Source: Methanobacteriota archaeon
GTDB taxonomy: Archaea > Thermoplasmatota > Poseidoniia > Poseidoniales > Thalassarchaeaceae
DNA: 5,361 bases
NCBI GenBank assembly: GCA_014384685.1
Contig: JACNFL010000108.1
Location: 1-5,361, forward strand
Direction of reading: 5' to 3'
Shown: positions 2 through 5,248 of the stretch, piece after piece
Position numbering within the stretch: position 1 is the first letter of the stretch
Layout: each line of letters starts with the position of its first letter
Made by a program: the position numbers and the translations under genes
The notes under the pieces: model-generated
Told to the model about the DNA's origin: nothing
The model's database searches: none
The model's input: the letters and a program-made list of their open reading frames with translations, nothing else

Positions 2-70
2 GAACAGGATATTCTTGAATTCGTATCCGCATTGGATATCGCCTTAAAAGCGAATAATGGAGAGGAGTAA
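2..70 (+). CDS. C-terminal end of an upstream gene (partial; possibly hemL)
   Basis: Twenty-two codons are open from the window edge to a TAA at 68-70, ending in ...DIALKANNGEE. The stop lies one base before the TTG proposed as the hemE start, and the hemE Shine-Dalgarno site lies inside its last codons, so this gene is most likely translated together with hemE. The fragment DILEFVSALDIALK resembles the last helix of glutamate-1-semialdehyde aminomutase (HemL), whose family often ends in a 'T-x-E-D-I-x-x-T-x-x-A-A-x-x-A-L' pattern. HemL would fit the pathway context. Twenty-two residues cannot settle the family, so no symbol is given. It could equally be another aminotransferase or another heme gene. 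Confidence 0.5.
   Translation, partial: EQDILEFVSALDIALKANNGEE
59..65 (+). promoter_or_regulatory. Ribosome binding site that favours the TTG start of hemE
   Basis: GGAGAGG lies six bases before TTG at 72-74. An ATG at 57-59 is in the same frame but overlaps this purine run, so it cannot use it. Starting at 72 gives the typical short HemE N-terminus (M-N-S-R-E-R-I-L). The ATG would add five residues that the family does not need. Confidence 0.6.
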
Positions 71-71
71 T

Positions 72-1112
72 TTGAACAGTAGAGAGAGAATCCTTTCCGC
101 ATTAAACTTGAGAGAGGTAGACCGCCCCCCTATTTGGTTCATGCGACAAGCGGGAAGATACCTACCTGAATATTTGCAAATAAGTTCCAAATATGATTTT
201 TGGCTACGGGTGAAAGACTCAGACTTATGCACAGAGATAAGCCTCCAGCCACTAAAAAGATTTGATTTGGATGCGGCTATCGTCTTTAGTGACATTCTCA
301 CTCCATTTCCTGCACTTGGCTATGAAGTTGAATATGGAGGAGGAATTAGAATTTCTCCATTTGAGTTTTCGGACCTTGAACAATGGCCAGTTTTTGATGC
401 TGAAGAAGATGCACCTTGGGCAGCCAATGCACTTCAAAAACTTCGCAAGGCTCTACCGGACACCGCCTTATTGGGTTTTGCTGGCGCACCTTGGACATTA
501 GCGATGTATCTCCTAGCCGGAGGAACTGGCGACCGAGATTTTACAAATGCAAGGGCAAAATTGGCCTCAAACCCACAACAGCGAGATTTATTGCTTTCGA
601 AACTGGCCGATGCCGTTGCTGACTTACTTGTTGACCAAGCATTACGAGGTGGGGCAGATGCTGTACAAATTTTTGCCACATGGGCAGGCCTACTAACCAA
701 AAACGAATATGAAACTATTGTTCTGCCAAGCACATTACGAGTTATAAAACGGTTCCGTCAAAAGGCGGGAAATGACATACCGATAATCCACTACGCCCGA
801 GGCGCCATGCATCTTGAAGAAGCACTGTTTTCCTTGCCAGTAAACTGTATTTCTCTAGATTGGAGAATGGAACTTACACATATTCGCCAACAATATGGTA
901 AGAAATATTGTATCCAAGGTAACCTTGACCCAATGGCCCTACACGCCACACCATGTGAAGCAAAACTGCGTAGTGAGGAAGTATTGCGGGCAGCAGGAAA
1001 TAGTCCTGGATTTATTTTTAACCTAGGACATGGCATATCACCAGGTGCAAACATAGATGCTGTAAATGCGATGGTCGAAACAGTCACTGGGGGTGGAGAT
1101 GATTCAGATTGA
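72..1112 (+). CDS. hemE: Uroporphyrinogen III decarboxylase
   Basis: HemE removes the four acetate carboxyl groups of uroporphyrinogen III to give coproporphyrinogen III, in the cytosol and without a cofactor. From TTG-72 the protein has 346 residues, close to the usual ~340-355. Family landmarks appear in order. The N-terminal signature PPIWFMRQAGRYLPEY (residues 19-34) carries the two substrate-binding arginines R25 and R29. FSDIL has the pyrrole-binding D74, and GFAGAPWTL is followed by Y146. QGNLDP lies in the C-terminal third, and NLGHGI carries H320. These match human Arg37, Arg41, Asp86, Tyr164 and His339. One departure is QIFATWAG (A202, T203), where bacterial enzymes usually have F-D-S-W; T203 replaces the usual serine. 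The alternative ATG start at 57 would give 351 residues. The 3' end overlaps hemN by 14 bases, which implies coupled translation. Identification is secure; only the start is open. Confidence 0.96.
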   Translation: MNSRERILSALNLREVDRPPIWFMRQAGRYLPEYLQISSKYDFWLRVKDSDLCTEISLQPLKRFDLDAAIVFSDILTPFPALGYEVEYGGGIRISPFEFSDLEQWPVFDAEEDAPWAANALQKLRKALPDTALLGFAGAPWTLAMYLLAGGTGDRDFTNARAKLASNPQQRDLLLSKLADAVADLLVDQALRGGADAVQIFATWAGLLTKNEYETIVLPSTLRVIKRFRQKAGNDIPIIHYARGAMHLEEALFSLPVNCISLDWRMELTHIRQQYGKKYCIQGNLDPMALHATPCEAKLRSEEVLRAAGNSPGFIFNLGHGISPGANIDAVNAMVETVTGGGDDSD

Positions 1113-2445
1113 TGCCGAAACAGTTGCTCGTTATGACCGTCTAGGTCCGCGATATACCTCATATCCAACAGTCCCTCAATGGCACGATAGTTACGGTCAA
1201 GGCGAAGTTATTTCGGCACTGAAGAGAGCCAATCTACGTAGTGGTCCTTTGAGCCTTTATATTCATCTTCCTTTCTGCAAATCAACCTGCTCTTTTTGTG
1301 GATGTAATCATGTTGCTGATCAAAAGCAAAAACTTACTGCACAATTTGCACCCCTGCTTGAAAAGGAATTGGATTTGTTTGCTTCCAATCTGCCAAAACG
1401 ACGAGATATTGTTCAACTGCATCTCGGAGGAGGGACTCCTACATGGCTGACATCCATTCAACTTGATACTATTCTCAATGTAGTTGGAGAGAAGTTCAAT
1501 TTTCTCGTAAATGCGGAAAAAAGCATCGAAGTTCATCCTGCGGTGACCACAATTTCCCATATTGAGGTTCTCGCTGCACATGGATTCCAACGTATTTCGA
1601 TGGGAGTCCAAGATTTCGACCCTCAAGTTCAAGAAATCATCGGCAGGATTCAATCAGTTGATATGACGAGAGAGTTGATCGCTGCTTGTAGAGAAAGAGG
1701 TTTTAGTTCAGTAAATCTCGATTTGATATATGGCTTACCTGCACAAACAGCAAATAAATTTGACTCAACATTAACTCACGTAATTAACCTAAGACCAGAG
1801 CGAATCGCATTGTATTCATATGCCCACTTACCGGCAAGATTTAGCCATCAATCAACGATGCCTCTAGAACTGTTACCATCTAGTGAAGAGAAAATGAAAA
1901 TATTCTTACTCTCACGCCGGAGATTACTCGAGGCAGGGTACATAGACATCGGAATGGATCACTTTGTACTTCCAGAAGATGATATGGCAAAGGCACTTCT
2001 CACGGGTGAGTTACATCGTAATTTCATGGGCTATTCTACAAAGGCGGGTTCTGAAATGATCGCGGTTGGTCCAAGTGCGATTTCAATGCTTGAAGATAGT
2101 TACTTCCAGTTAAACCCTCATTGGGCAAGTTGGCGTAGAGCAGTAGAGATGGGCGAGTTGTCCATTGTCAAAGGAATCAATTTGGATGAGGAAACGCAAA
2201 AACGACGTGATGCAATTATGTCATGGATGTGCAATAGGAGAATAGACAAAGGTGAGGATTTTCCAAACCATTGGATTACCCACTTGAAAAGTGAAACCAT
2301 TTCGCCATTAGTAGAAGAGGATGAACATGGGTGGCATGCAACAAATTTAGGTAACCTCTTTTTACGAGTTATTGCAATGGGCTTTGACCCTTCTTTCAAT
2401 GGCTTAGAAGAAGAGGTAAAGCATCAATACAGCCAAACAGTTTGA
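1099..2445 (+). CDS. hemN: Oxygen-independent coproporphyrinogen III dehydrogenase (radical SAM)
   Basis: HemN oxidatively decarboxylates two propionate side chains of coproporphyrinogen III to vinyl groups, giving protoporphyrinogen IX, using S-adenosylmethionine and a 4Fe-4S cluster instead of oxygen. The protein has 448 residues (E. coli HemN has 457). It opens with the HemN-specific GPRYTSYPT (16-24). The cluster motif is C60-x3-C64-x2-C67-x-C69; the fourth cysteine is characteristic of true HemN as against HemW-like proteins. GGGTP (110-114) is the SAM-binding glycine motif. IEVHP, QRISMGVQDF and NLDLIYGLP follow, and the true HemN C-terminal region is present with GMDHF (285-289) and HRNFMGY (306-312). 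Heme-chaperone HemW lacks these last blocks, so I call HemN with confidence. ATG-1099 aligns with the E. coli N-terminus. An in-frame ATG at 1066 and GTG at 1093 lie inside hemE. The upstream GGGGGTGGAG is only a weak, very close ribosome site, in keeping with coupling to hemE. Confidence 0.96.
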   Translation: MIQIDAETVARYDRLGPRYTSYPTVPQWHDSYGQGEVISALKRANLRSGPLSLYIHLPFCKSTCSFCGCNHVADQKQKLTAQFAPLLEKELDLFASNLPKRRDIVQLHLGGGTPTWLTSIQLDTILNVVGEKFNFLVNAEKSIEVHPAVTTISHIEVLAAHGFQRISMGVQDFDPQVQEIIGRIQSVDMTRELIAACRERGFSSVNLDLIYGLPAQTANKFDSTLTHVINLRPERIALYSYAHLPARFSHQSTMPLELLPSSEEKMKIFLLSRRRLLEAGYIDIGMDHFVLPEDDMAKALLTGELHRNFMGYSTKAGSEMIAVGPSAISMLEDSYFQLNPHWASWRRAVEMGELSIVKGINLDEETQKRRDAIMSWMCNRRIDKGEDFPNHWITHLKSETISPLVEEDEHGWHATNLGNLFLRVIAMGFDPSFNGLEEEVKHQYSQTV

Positions 2446-2453: not shown

Positions 2454-3566
2454 ATGATGAATGAAATTGACATCACTGGAGGTGGATTATCTGGCCTCAT
2501 TACCGCATATCGCATTGGTAAAGAAGCCCCTCAAGCAGAAATCAATCTATATGAAAAAAATTCGAGATTTGGGGGTTCAATTATTACTGTACGAGAAAAT
2601 GGCTATGTTGAGGAAGGCGGACCAAGTACCTTTAGATACTGTGAATCGACATGGAAATTAGTGAAGGAGTTGTCTCTTGAAAATGTATGGGAACCACTCA
2701 AGCCAGCGCACAAAAAGCGCTGGATAAGGTGGAAAGGAAAGAACCTCACTCCTGCCCGCGCAACTTTCACCTCCCTAATCCCAAGACCATGGCGGTTTCC
2801 ACTTGTCAAGAAACTCCCTGGAGGTAGTATCGCTGATAGATTCCCAAGAGATAGGCGCGGTGGGACTGCGCCATTGGCCAATGCAATTTCCTTGGGTATT
2901 GTCAATGCCCCTGCTGATGAGGTCGATGCCGCATTTGTAATGCGTCGGCGCGTAAAGGGCCCAGTGCCTCATACCTTCAGCACTGGCATAGATACTCTCA
3001 CAACACGATTAGTTGAACTGCTTCAGAATATGGATAATGTAAAACTTCACCTTAACTCACTTGGGCCAAGCAGCCCATCAATCCTCGCTTCACCGCCACA
3101 AAATCACAAGTTAAATGGAATTCAAGTGGTAGGAATCGGCTTTTCCGAGGAGGACTGTGAAGTGATTCCTCAGGGCTTTGGTATTCTTTCTCCAGATTCA
3201 AAAGAAGGAGTGATTTCTGGTATACTACACAGTACTGATCATTTGCCGGGAGAAAGATCTCCTGTCGGCCATCGCCTATTTAGAGCAATGATCCCTGACC
3301 GCAGACTTAATGGTGAGAGCCCTGTTGAAGCTGCAGTTAGTTGTATGCAAAAGTGGTATCCCGACCTTAAGGACCCTGCATGGACAAAACTAATCGCTTC
3401 AGCAGCAATTCCCGAATTCCCTCCTGGATGTTCATTAAACTCTCTTCTTGACGACAGCAACCTTCCGGTTAGAGTTGATTGGAGCGCAGTAGGACCAGCG
3501 ATGAATCACATTATTGAAGCATCTGAAAAAGCCGTTGGAAGGATTAAGAAAGCAAATCTTCTATGA
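2454..3566 (+). CDS. hemY: Short HemY-type protoporphyrinogen oxidase (FAD, amine-oxidase fold)
   Basis: This FAD enzyme is predicted to oxidise protoporphyrinogen IX to protoporphyrin IX, probably at the membrane surface. The N-terminal Rossmann motif is G9-G10-G11-L12-S13-G14, followed by the ribose-binding E34 and the R-F-G-G motif (38-41) of the amine-oxidase/protoporphyrinogen-oxidase superfamily. EEGGPSTF (53-60) is the next family block. The middle contains TFSTGIDTL and PQGFGILSP, which match the HemY patterns 'tf-x-x-G-m-x-x-L' and 'G-f-G-f-L-v-P'. The C-terminal FAD-binding block is DWSAVGPAMNHII (342-354). At 370 residues it is about 80-100 shorter than the usual ~450-480. The shortfall falls around residues 120-165 and 195-215, in the substrate-binding/membrane half. 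The glycine that normally precedes the C-terminal D/N is V341. The gene starts eight bases after hemN and overlaps the convergent ferrochelatase fragment by 23 bases. Context strongly supports this function over other flavin amine oxidases. Some authors would use hemG in a generic sense. Confidence 0.85.
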   Translation: MMNEIDITGGGLSGLITAYRIGKEAPQAEINLYEKNSRFGGSIITVRENGYVEEGGPSTFRYCESTWKLVKELSLENVWEPLKPAHKKRWIRWKGKNLTPARATFTSLIPRPWRFPLVKKLPGGSIADRFPRDRRGGTAPLANAISLGIVNAPADEVDAAFVMRRRVKGPVPHTFSTGIDTLTTRLVELLQNMDNVKLHLNSLGPSSPSILASPPQNHKLNGIQVVGIGFSEEDCEVIPQGFGILSPDSKEGVISGILHSTDHLPGERSPVGHRLFRAMIPDRRLNGESPVEAAVSCMQKWYPDLKDPAWTKLIASAAIPEFPPGCSLNSLLDDSNLPVRVDWSAVGPAMNHIIEASEKAVGRIKKANLL

Positions 3567-3849
3567 TGTTACCAAGACCATGGACCCAGGTACTTTCAAA
3601 GTTAAGGCAAGGTAAAAGGCGGTAAGACTTACCTCCATTATTGAGAAATTGCATTCTCACTTCTTCTCCAAGTTCTTCAAGGGTCTCAAGGCAATCAGTG
3701 GTAAATCCCGGTACGAGCACTTTTCTATAGATTTTAAGATTGGTAGTTTGTGACTTCCCTTTGAAACCATTTACTTCGAGTATGTTTAGGCCCGGGAAAC
3801 CGTTTGGCATGTCAGAAAAGAAATCAATCGAGGTCAGCGGAGTAACCAT
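3544..3849 (-). pseudogene. hemH: Ferrochelatase C-terminal fragment joined to a copied membrane-protein tail
   Basis: This is an open frame of 101 codons. From position 3720 to the stop, about 58 residues match the end of HemH: VLVPGFTTDCLETLEELG, then NNGGKSYRLLPCLN, then a final helix. HemH inserts Fe2+ into protoporphyrin IX and is normally ~310-340 residues. Here about four fifths is missing, including the segment with the catalytic histidine (His183 in Bacillus subtilis HemH); the glutamate of CLETLEE, equivalent to its Glu264, remains. The ~43 residues in front are not ferrochelatase. They contain DMPNGF...ILEVNG, a diverged copy of the tail of the protein encoded just upstream. ATG-3849 is preceded by AGGTGA at a six-base spacing, so the frame may still be translated; a TTG at 3855 is an alternative. 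It overlaps the upstream gene by 26 bases and the oxidase gene by 23. I see it as a recombination remnant without ferrochelatase activity. An assembly chimera is the main alternative. Confidence 0.75.
3766..3807 (-). repeat. Diverged direct repeat, copy nearest hemH (inside the chimeric frame)
   Basis: These 42 bases align without gaps to 3872-3913, with 30 identities by eye. The best-kept blocks are ACCA, TTACTTC and CCGTTTGG on the + strand. In the - strand frame used here it encodes PNGFPGLNILEVNG. The offset between copies is 106 bases, not a multiple of three, so the two copies are read in different frames. Confidence 0.7.
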
Positions 3850-4279
3850 CTTCAATCACCTGGAGAGTCAGACCAGTTACTTCAAGCACCTTTTGACGTG
3901 AAAAGCCGTTTGGTAATTTCAGTGAAGGTCGACCTGGGGTGCATATTTCGTAATTTGTCGAGGTGGTCGTTGTACCCGAATCTTCGTCGTAAGAGTGGTA
4001 ATTGTATTCAGCCATAAAGGATGTAGGCGTGAGGTTAATGCTCATCTTTTCCTTTTGGGCTTTGTTAAACCAACTGGTTTTTACAACAACGGTGTTTTCC
4101 AAACCTAAATGAGCTATGTATGTTCTTTTAGAATAAACTGCATACACTACAAAGATGTAAAGCATGCCCAAGGACGCCATGATTGCTGCCCACGTGAATG
4201 AATTTGCAGTTATGATCACATCCAGACCCCAATATATGTCCCTGTCGTAGGTTCCAAATCCAATAGTTAGGAAGATCAA
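3824..4279 (-). CDS. Small membrane protein with C-terminal beta-rich domain, function unknown
   Basis: I do not recognise the family. From TTG-4279 it has 151 residues. Two hydrophobic stretches come first: about residues 1-9, extending upstream of the TTG, and about 29-49 (AAIMASLGMLYIFVVYAVY). A soluble domain of ~100 residues follows. It has alternating hydrophobic residues, a Ser/Thr-rich loop (SGTTTTST, 101-108) and a closing motif TPGRPSLKLPNGF...VLEVTG (114-136). The layout, a pair of membrane helices then a beta-type domain, resembles the central part of the larger protein encoded just upstream, so the two may be paralogues. The start is uncertain. The frame is open back to the TAA at 4333-4331 that ends the larger gene, and the sequence between is hydrophobic and coding-like but has no ATG or GTG. 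TTG-4279 has GGAGG only one base before it, which is too close. The gene may have lost its proper start, or may once have been fused to its neighbour. Confidence 0.6.
   Translation of the reverse strand: MIFLTIGFGTYDRDIYWGLDVIITANSFTWAAIMASLGMLYIFVVYAVYSKRTYIAHLGLENTVVVKTSWFNKAQKEKMSINLTPTSFMAEYNYHSYDEDSGTTTTSTNYEICTPGRPSLKLPNGFSRQKVLEVTGLTLQVIEDGYSADLD
3856..3861 (-). promoter_or_regulatory. Ribosome binding site for the ferrochelatase-fragment frame
   Basis: On the - strand AGGTGA lies six bases before ATG-3849, similar to the GAGGTGA that precedes the oxidase gene. It lies inside the coding sequence of the upstream membrane-protein gene, as expected for overlapping genes, so it may be chance. 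Confidence 0.4.
3872..3913 (-). repeat. Diverged direct repeat, copy at the end of the small membrane-protein gene
   Basis: This is the partner of 3766-3807. In the frame of the upstream gene it encodes PNGFSRQKVLEVTG. The same peptide motif (PNGF, then a hydrophobic residue, LEV, x, G) is kept in both copies although the frame differs. That points to copying of a coding segment followed by divergence under protein-level constraint, not a random DNA match. Confidence 0.7.
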
Positions 4280-4330
4280 ACCTCCGACGAAAGTTGCTAT
4301 ACAGGTTTGAGCGATAACCGAACTTACAAC

Positions 4331-5248
4331 TTAGCGAGGCTCATGAGGGATGAAATCATCCGACACATTCTGCAATGAACCCTGCGGGTCTTCTTCCGAA
4401 GTCGGCATTGGTGTTTCGATGGAAACGCTTGACTCAGAAGGGGATACTTTTTGCTGTGCAGTTATCGATCCTGCATCATTATCAACTTCTGCCCAAAAGG
4501 TTTCTTTTGGTTCAGACTCTTCTTCGGATCTATCTTTGATTTGCAGCAAATAGTTGAGTGCATCAGCCATATTTTCTGCTTCCGTTTGTGTGCCCGATTG
4601 AATCTCAACCAAAGGTATTGCATACTCCGACTGAGTAAGAGACCGTTCATCATCAGGATTTTTCAATACAATTCCAGTCACATGTACTTTGTAGGAACTC
4701 GAATCGCCATCCGAATCACTTGACTCAACCCAACGCGTGTAATACTTGATTTCAGTTATGTCTGTTCGAGGTGTGTTGACATGAATCTCAGGCGTAGCGA
4801 TGTTCAATCGCTCATAGAGAACTTCGAGATGATTATCATGAACATACAGAATTTGTTCTCCGCGCAGATTCAGCAAAAAGAATATCAAAAGAACAAAGAA
4901 TGCAAAAACTGCGATTCCCGTCATAGACCAATTTGCAGTGGTAATTCCGTTGAACACATATGCAAGGGCAATGATTGACGCTAGGAGCATTCCAAAAGCC
5001 ATTCCTAAGGAACCGTTTCCTCCTACCACCACTTTCAGTATCCCGTCCTCCCATCTGATTCGTGTATCCAATTCCCCCGAATTTTGAATGTTCATGAACC
5101 TCTGGTCCATGGTATCAGCTTCGTTTGAAAGCGATGAAAAGTCTGTTCCACTTCCATGAAAAGTGGAGGTTTGCCCCATCCTCGAGCGAATGAGCAAACT
5201 CACATATCCAAATATGGAAAGAGGGAGGAGAATTGGTATAAATTGCAT
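4331..5248 (-). CDS. Multi-pass membrane protein with beta-rich domain and acidic tail, function unknown
   Basis: I do not recognise the family by sequence. The 305-residue product has an N-terminal hydrophobic anchor (residues 3-20, followed by R21 and R23), a Ser-rich linker, and two more membrane helices at about 81-99 and 107-127. A soluble domain at about 129-235 has short alternating beta strands, including GEQILYVHDNHLEVLYER and TDITEIKYYTRW. A low-complexity Ser/Glu/Asp/Pro tail makes up about 236-305 and looks disordered. Two adjacent helices followed by a strand-rich domain would suit a bacterial/archaeal PH-like (bPH) membrane protein; this rests on pattern only. ATG-5248 is the only standard start in the frame after the upstream stop. 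It lacks a clear Shine-Dalgarno site, and the ten codons before it also look coding, so it may be an internal methionine of a once longer gene. The stop TAA (4333-4331) is followed in the same frame by the smaller membrane-protein gene. Confidence 0.75.
   Translation of the reverse strand: MQFIPILLPLSIFGYVSLLIRSRMGQTSTFHGSGTDFSSLSNEADTMDQRFMNIQNSGELDTRIRWEDGILKVVVGGNGSLGMAFGMLLASIIALAYVFNGITTANWSMTGIAVFAFFVLLIFFLLNLRGEQILYVHDNHLEVLYERLNIATPEIHVNTPRTDITEIKYYTRWVESSDSDGDSSSYKVHVTGIVLKNPDDERSLTQSEYAIPLVEIQSGTQTEAENMADALNYLLQIKDRSEEESEPKETFWAEVDNDAGSITAQQKVSPSESSVSIETPMPTSEEDPQGSLQNVSDDFIPHEPR

Follow-up and report, generated by a model that had tools for sequence, protein, structure and literature searches.

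A ferrochelatase gene reduced to its C-terminal tail, convergent with a hemE-hemN-hemY run

How could a ferrochelatase gene (hemH) come to be reduced to its last codons beside a run of heme genes, and how might its organism then obtain heme? These questions are raised by the window analysed here (the whole stretch of DNA under study, 5,361 nucleotides long). On the plus strand the window carries hemE, hemN and a hemY-like gene, and on the minus strand an open reading frame (ORF) that ends as a ferrochelatase ends but does not begin as one.

A heme gene run facing a ferrochelatase tail

The run begins with hemE, encoding a full-length uroporphyrinogen decarboxylase (57..1112, plus strand; TIGR01464, 324.1 bits against a cut-off of 302.95), and continues with hemN, encoding a full-length oxygen-independent coproporphyrinogen III oxidase (1099..2445, plus strand, with an earlier start possible at 1066; TIGR00538, 432.8 bits against a cut-off of 324.95). 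The third gene (2454..3566, plus strand) encodes a hemY-like protoporphyrinogen oxidase that is short (370 aa) and divergent. Its score against TIGR00562 is 83.0 bits, below the cut-off of 97.85, and the match covers residues 2-108 only. An initial annotation of this DNA had described the heme gene run as otherwise intact, a description that holds for HemE and HemN, which score over their cut-offs, but is less secure for HemY. Since the hemY-like gene has an open frame and a coding score (0.184) resembling that of hemE (0.198, in a codon table that included both genes), we take this gene to be divergent and not broken. Its product is very isolated among 5.8 billion proteins, with three matches at E<=0.001, one of them itself, among 4596 candidates, and in an alignment its middle part is shorter than that of its two matched relatives. 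In the genome contig collection, 16 stretches matched a pattern of the hemY query, none of them a relative. Just ahead of hemE, positions 2-70 appear by eye to hold the end of a further gene, whose product would end in ...ILEFVSALDIALKANNGEE; by its place this could be hemL, as in the Heimdallarchaeota locus L007.

Convergent with the run lies the minus-strand ORF that carries the hemH tail (3544-3855), with a length of 103 aa when started at a TTG at 3855 or of 101 aa when started at an ATG at 3849; hemY and hemH share 23 bases at their 3' ends (3544-3566). Its last 58 codons and stop (3544..3720, minus) are assigned to hemH by PF00762, by tblastn and by invariant alignment columns, and the 58 residues encoded by 3547-3720 are the C-terminal end of ferrochelatase only. 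In the PF00762 match (E 1.2e-12), which at 47.9 bits exceeds the cut-off of 27, residues 46-99 of the ORF align with profile positions 261-314 of 317. The homology starts at 3720, in agreement with the initial annotation, which had HemH reduced to its last ~58 residues. The NCBIfam hemH profile (TIGR00109) is matched over positions 265-321 of 322 with 42.8 bits, a score below the whole-protein cut-off of 124.6, as expected of a fragment; a full HemH would have about 310-360 aa. A sequence search of the PDB with the tail alone gave two matches (E 0.04 and 0.72), neither of them a ferrochelatase. The tail is short for such a search, and it is therefore the Pfam profile that decides its identity as HemH. 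In the plasmid collection the tail matched 89 of 72,556 records, the named ones being hemH, with an identity of 44-48% in the 15 rows listed of these 89.

Where, then, is the rest of the enzyme? With the 355-aa HemH of a metagenome-assembled genome labelled Geobacter sp. (L072), tblastn found a single significant place in the window, 3720-3556 on the minus strand (40% identity, E 2e-11). The remaining pieces of this protein had E 0.03 or worse, and its residues 1-284 gave a best E of 0.5. A HemH of the Heimdall type (L082, 347 aa) reached a best E of 2.7 against the window. The stretch S[FYA]HG.P of HemH, whose histidine is catalytic, is present in all eight full-length HemH rows of our alignment and has no match in any of the six frames of the window. 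The tblastn searches with two full HemH proteins and the six-frame motif scan thus bear out two earlier statements, namely that the N-terminal ~260 residues occur nowhere in the window and that the fragment is without the stretch bearing the catalytic histidine. With this part missing, it follows from established knowledge of HemH that the fragment alone would be unable to chelate iron. The initial annotation had also considered that nothing but frameshifts might divide an otherwise intact HemH here. This case is ruled out, as tblastn finds the N-terminal part to be missing from the window and not frameshifted.

The part that is left resembles HemH of the proteobacterial type (PF00762, TIGR00109). 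Such proteins and the last 58 residues encoded in the window have in common the DCLETLEE stretch, the GG and the P.LN, whereas the window lacks their ~260 N-terminal residues, including the catalytic-histidine stretch. We aligned the tail in ten rows, the window included, of which the L089 row is itself partial. All 14 columns that are invariant in eight DCLETLEE-type relatives are kept in the window, as are all nine columns that are invariant across the nine other rows. When the other DCLETLEE-type rows were left out one at a time, each was found to keep 14/14 or 14/15 invariant columns. The coding score of the tail in its own frame is positive, and to judge from its residues the HemH tail is without visible decay.

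The junction and the region upstream of it

The homology to HemH stops at 3720, and in the junction zone (3721..3732, minus) the residues upstream of this point are unlike HemH. From there the fused ORF continues as an in-frame, non-HemH leader (3733..3855, minus), which has no Pfam match and contains a PNGF....LEV.G stretch. This stretch resembles the C-terminal part of the next ORF upstream, m2, with a local alignment score that was reached by 1 of 3000 shuffles; the leader and m2 lie in different frames. Read as an ORF, m2 (3824..4330, minus) is the probable second half of a membrane protein, and its first ATG, GTG or TTG comes not before 4279. The ORF that precedes it, m1 (4331..5248, minus; 305 aa), probably encodes the first half of that protein. 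The two ORFs are in the same frame, with a single TAA at 4331-4333 between them. No Pfam or NCBIfam family was matched over its cut-off by m1 or m2, and the best PHROG match had E 0.054.

Our reading of this region is that 3733-5248 probably represents one membrane-protein gene, broken by the stop at 4331-4333 and by a loss of frame near 3826-3860. Alternatively, m1, m2 and the leader may each belong to an ordinary gene, three in all. That the gene neighbouring hemH is apparently broken as well makes local decay or a deletion more plausible than a special heme strategy. No repeats were found at the junction itself, a 13-base near-repeat (3696-3708/4936-4948) lying off it, and no RNA family matched the window at the gathering threshold.

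By eye, and in a low-confidence model, m1 and m2 could have diverged from a repeated membrane unit composed of membrane helices and a strand-rich part. The likeness of the two is weak, with 7 of 1000 shuffles scoring at least as high and a BLASTP E of 0.37. The single-sequence structure model of m1 had a mean pLDDT of 43.5 and was not usable.

How the fused frame may have arisen

Three things are directly observed in the window, namely the HemH tail, the lack of an N-terminal part and the fusion of two frames into one. As to their origin, the reading we prefer, with a little better than even confidence, is that they are what remains of an ordinary hemH broken by a DNA deletion, which linked the end of the membrane gene directly to that of hemH. 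According to this reading, hemH would once have stood convergent to the hemE-hemN-hemY run. A deletion between two minus-strand genes would then have taken the 3' end of the membrane gene together with the first four fifths of hemH, and the remaining ends would have been joined at about 3720-3732, in frame by chance. Since both genes point the same way, one deletion would be enough. The membrane gene would itself be defective, and the upstream lesions that we count in favour of a deletion are the TAA at 4331-4333, the late start of m2 and the m2-like motif that lies out of frame in the leader. With two neighbouring same-strand genes defective around the join, a single deletion together with decay would offer a simple explanation. 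The fused product would have no ferrochelatase activity, and the ORF most likely makes nothing useful.

Because the tail appears free of decay, the break would have to be recent, or else the join artificial, and an assembly chimera is indeed the main rival to a deletion. A heme-gene piece ending inside hemH would then have been joined to an unrelated piece at about 3720-3732, and the real genome would have an intact hemH. We consider this rather improbable, though well worth weighing. The abrupt stop of the hemH homology next to an undecayed tail would suit such a join, and so would codon use. When scored against the hem genes, synonymous codon choice gives 0.020, -0.018 and -0.034 nats per codon for m1, m2 and the leader (simulated p 0.003, 0.0002 and 0.05), compared with 0.068 for the hemH tail (p 0.42). 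GC3 is likewise 0.34-0.36 in hemE, hemN, hemY and the tail, as against 0.41 in m1, 0.44 in m2 and 0.49 in the leader. However, scores below those simulated were also obtained for whole hem genes when each was omitted in turn (0.044-0.061, p 0.007-0.085), and six chunks of the hem genes cover a range of 0.044-0.084 (p 0.043-0.445). For this reason the codon-use signal is modest and leans only mildly to a chimera. Overall GC is alike on both sides of the join (0.41-0.46), and a chimera would leave the in-frame stop and the frame break inside the upstream gene unexplained.

If the real genome had an intact hemH, a full-length protein with this tail might be expected in the sequence collections, and none was found. 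A search of ~5.8 billion sequences for proteins of 110-350 aa with this tail gave seven candidates, none of them at E<=0.001; we estimate that an intact HemH with this tail would have ~320-340 aa. Sequences close to the window do exist in such data. The representative of P0004, the closest HemN cluster, differs from the window HemN at 1 of 459 residues, and at least one sequence in this cluster is therefore not the window's. P0004 stands for three members on six contigs, the longest of 50,323 bases; these six may include the window's own contig, the 50,323-base one being perhaps its parent record. Given these contigs, a whole hemH lying next to a further copy of this hemN ought to have come up in the search. 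The initial suggestion that the contig joins two unrelated pieces is weakened by this null result. As evidence against a chimera the null is nevertheless moderate to weak, because the search had no positive control and misses any HemH longer than 350 aa as well as contigs that end in the gene near the tail. It also misses the 101-103 aa fragment itself.

Two further explanations concern the kind of gene that was lost and the use of what is left. In a variant of the deletion reading, which we hold to be unlikely, the remnant would derive from a redundant, transferred hemH of bacterial type, and the organism would have its own hemH elsewhere, for example at the head of a heme operon as in Heimdallarchaeota. 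In favour of this variant, the tail is of the DCLETLEE type, as in proteobacterial hemH, and keeps the full set of 14 columns invariant in that type, compared with 9/14 in the Heimdall HemH L082. In addition, the hemH of Heimdallarchaeota L007 heads a hemH-hemA-hemC/D-hemB-hemL-hemE-hemN-hemY row (the names besides hemH, hemE, hemN and hemY being read by eye). Finally, the 101-103 aa protein could have a function of its own, serving as a small tail domain that cooperates with a partner protein, but this is very improbable. An open frame and the conservation of every invariant tail residue speak for such a function; against it, the protein contains no catalytic-histidine stretch, its leader is without a Pfam match, and the tail is just the end of a single enzyme.

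Relatives, heme supply and hemH on viral contigs

The relatives of the window were approached through HemN. In a tree of 141 rows (the window, proteins P0005-P0059 and 85 locus rows), built by a quick method and rooted at the midpoint, the window HemN groups with P0005 (56% identity, on a long branch). Next comes a 21-row set (98% SH-aLRT) with Heimdallarchaeota and P0008, whose source name is 'Euryarchaeota archaeon'. We take the source of the window to be archaeal; horizontal transfer of the hem cluster may have taken place. A search with a two-row HemN alignment yielded 80 loci, kept out of at least 543 relatives; the best among those listed is 43% identical, and closer relatives may lie beyond them. 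Among 56 relatives of a Heimdall genome, 20 matched the window HemN at E<=0.001, none of them with more than 46% identity.

A HemH match was present within the fetched stretch in 32 of the 80 loci, in 30 of them on the hemN strand. Proximity of hemH to hemN is thus known from other loci, which speaks for the deletion reading. In L058, hemH lies at a distance of 2.9 kb beyond hemN, on the opposite strand and next to a hemE of that strand. In the 48 other loci HemH is absent from the fetched stretch, a count that refers to the stretch only and not to whole genomes. In L072, hemH is convergent just behind hemN and stands tail to tail with the hem run, as in the window, but there it is whole (355 aa). 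The initial annotation had looked to related genomes for an intact hemH convergent with hemY; L072 provides a distant case, its intact hemH lying convergent behind hemE-hemN without a hemY between. The order hemE-hemN-hemY on one strand, as in the window, is seen in Heimdallarchaeota L007 and L087 (the latter from the genome of L004) and in a relative, L086. In L007 and L004, unlike in the window, hemH is intact, upstream and on the same strand, while L086 is too short to show hemH.

According to the accessible part of a 2010 survey of 59 archaeal genomes, late heme genes were missing from these genomes; hemE and hemH were found only in Picrophilus torridus and two Thermoplasma species, in which hemF/N and hemG/Y were unrecognizable (PMC3004389). 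The Heimdallarchaeota loci show that such late heme genes exist in archaea sequenced since that survey.

How would an organism with the fused ORF obtain heme? Most likely, iron would be inserted by another ferrochelatase encoded elsewhere, or heme would be taken up. An Ahb or coproporphyrin route is a further candidate, the initial annotation having named a second hemH, another iron-insertion route, or the export or use of protoporphyrin. One may also speculate that a free-living, archaeal-looking lineage keeps its porphyrin genes as far as protoporphyrin and has lost ferrochelatase, releasing porphyrin, using another chelatase or importing heme, but we give this little credence. Heme auxotrophy is widespread in aquatic lineages, according to a 2021 study cited in the accessible parts of PMC11561045 and PMC12381374. 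The lineages with incomplete heme synthesis described there are compared here with a 5.4 kb window alone. Among the best-ranked titles of the open-licence literature we found no report of ferrochelatase loss in a lineage like that of the window. If the break is real, the lineage has locally lost the last step of its heme gene run, and it would be of use in studying whether organisms that make heme turn into producers of porphyrin or into importers of heme. At present there is a single gene remnant from one short window, and ordinary explanations are available for it.

Some hemH genes were also encountered on viral and prophage contigs. Queries with m1 and with HemN found no relatives in the viral contig collection. 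An IMG/VR contig of 399,796 bases, listed as viral, encodes an intact 360-aa HemH (L090:4158-5240). In the phage collection this protein matched 4 of 50,697 records, namely two of Acinetobacter phage MD-2021a, one of an unannotated faecal phage and one of Enterococcus phage SEsuP-1. The hemH of L090 and of the phage records are candidate phage genes or, alternatively, candidate host DNA. At E<=0.1, no PHROG was matched by the window tail, the L072 HemH or the L090 HemH. In the accessible part of PMC11561400, phrog2954 is named ferrochelatase; the 'ferrochelatases' of pelagiphages may not be HemH-like, or the phrog2954 profile may be narrow. A second IMG/VR contig (7,049 bases) encodes a HemH that the contig end truncates to its C-terminal 129 residues (L089:2-391), ahead of ORFs that by eye resemble phage structural proteins. 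In a third (L091, 36,966 bases), a bacterial flank stands beside a likely prophage, and an integrase-like ORF adjoins ORFs that, named by eye, are like dus, folE and an intact hemH.
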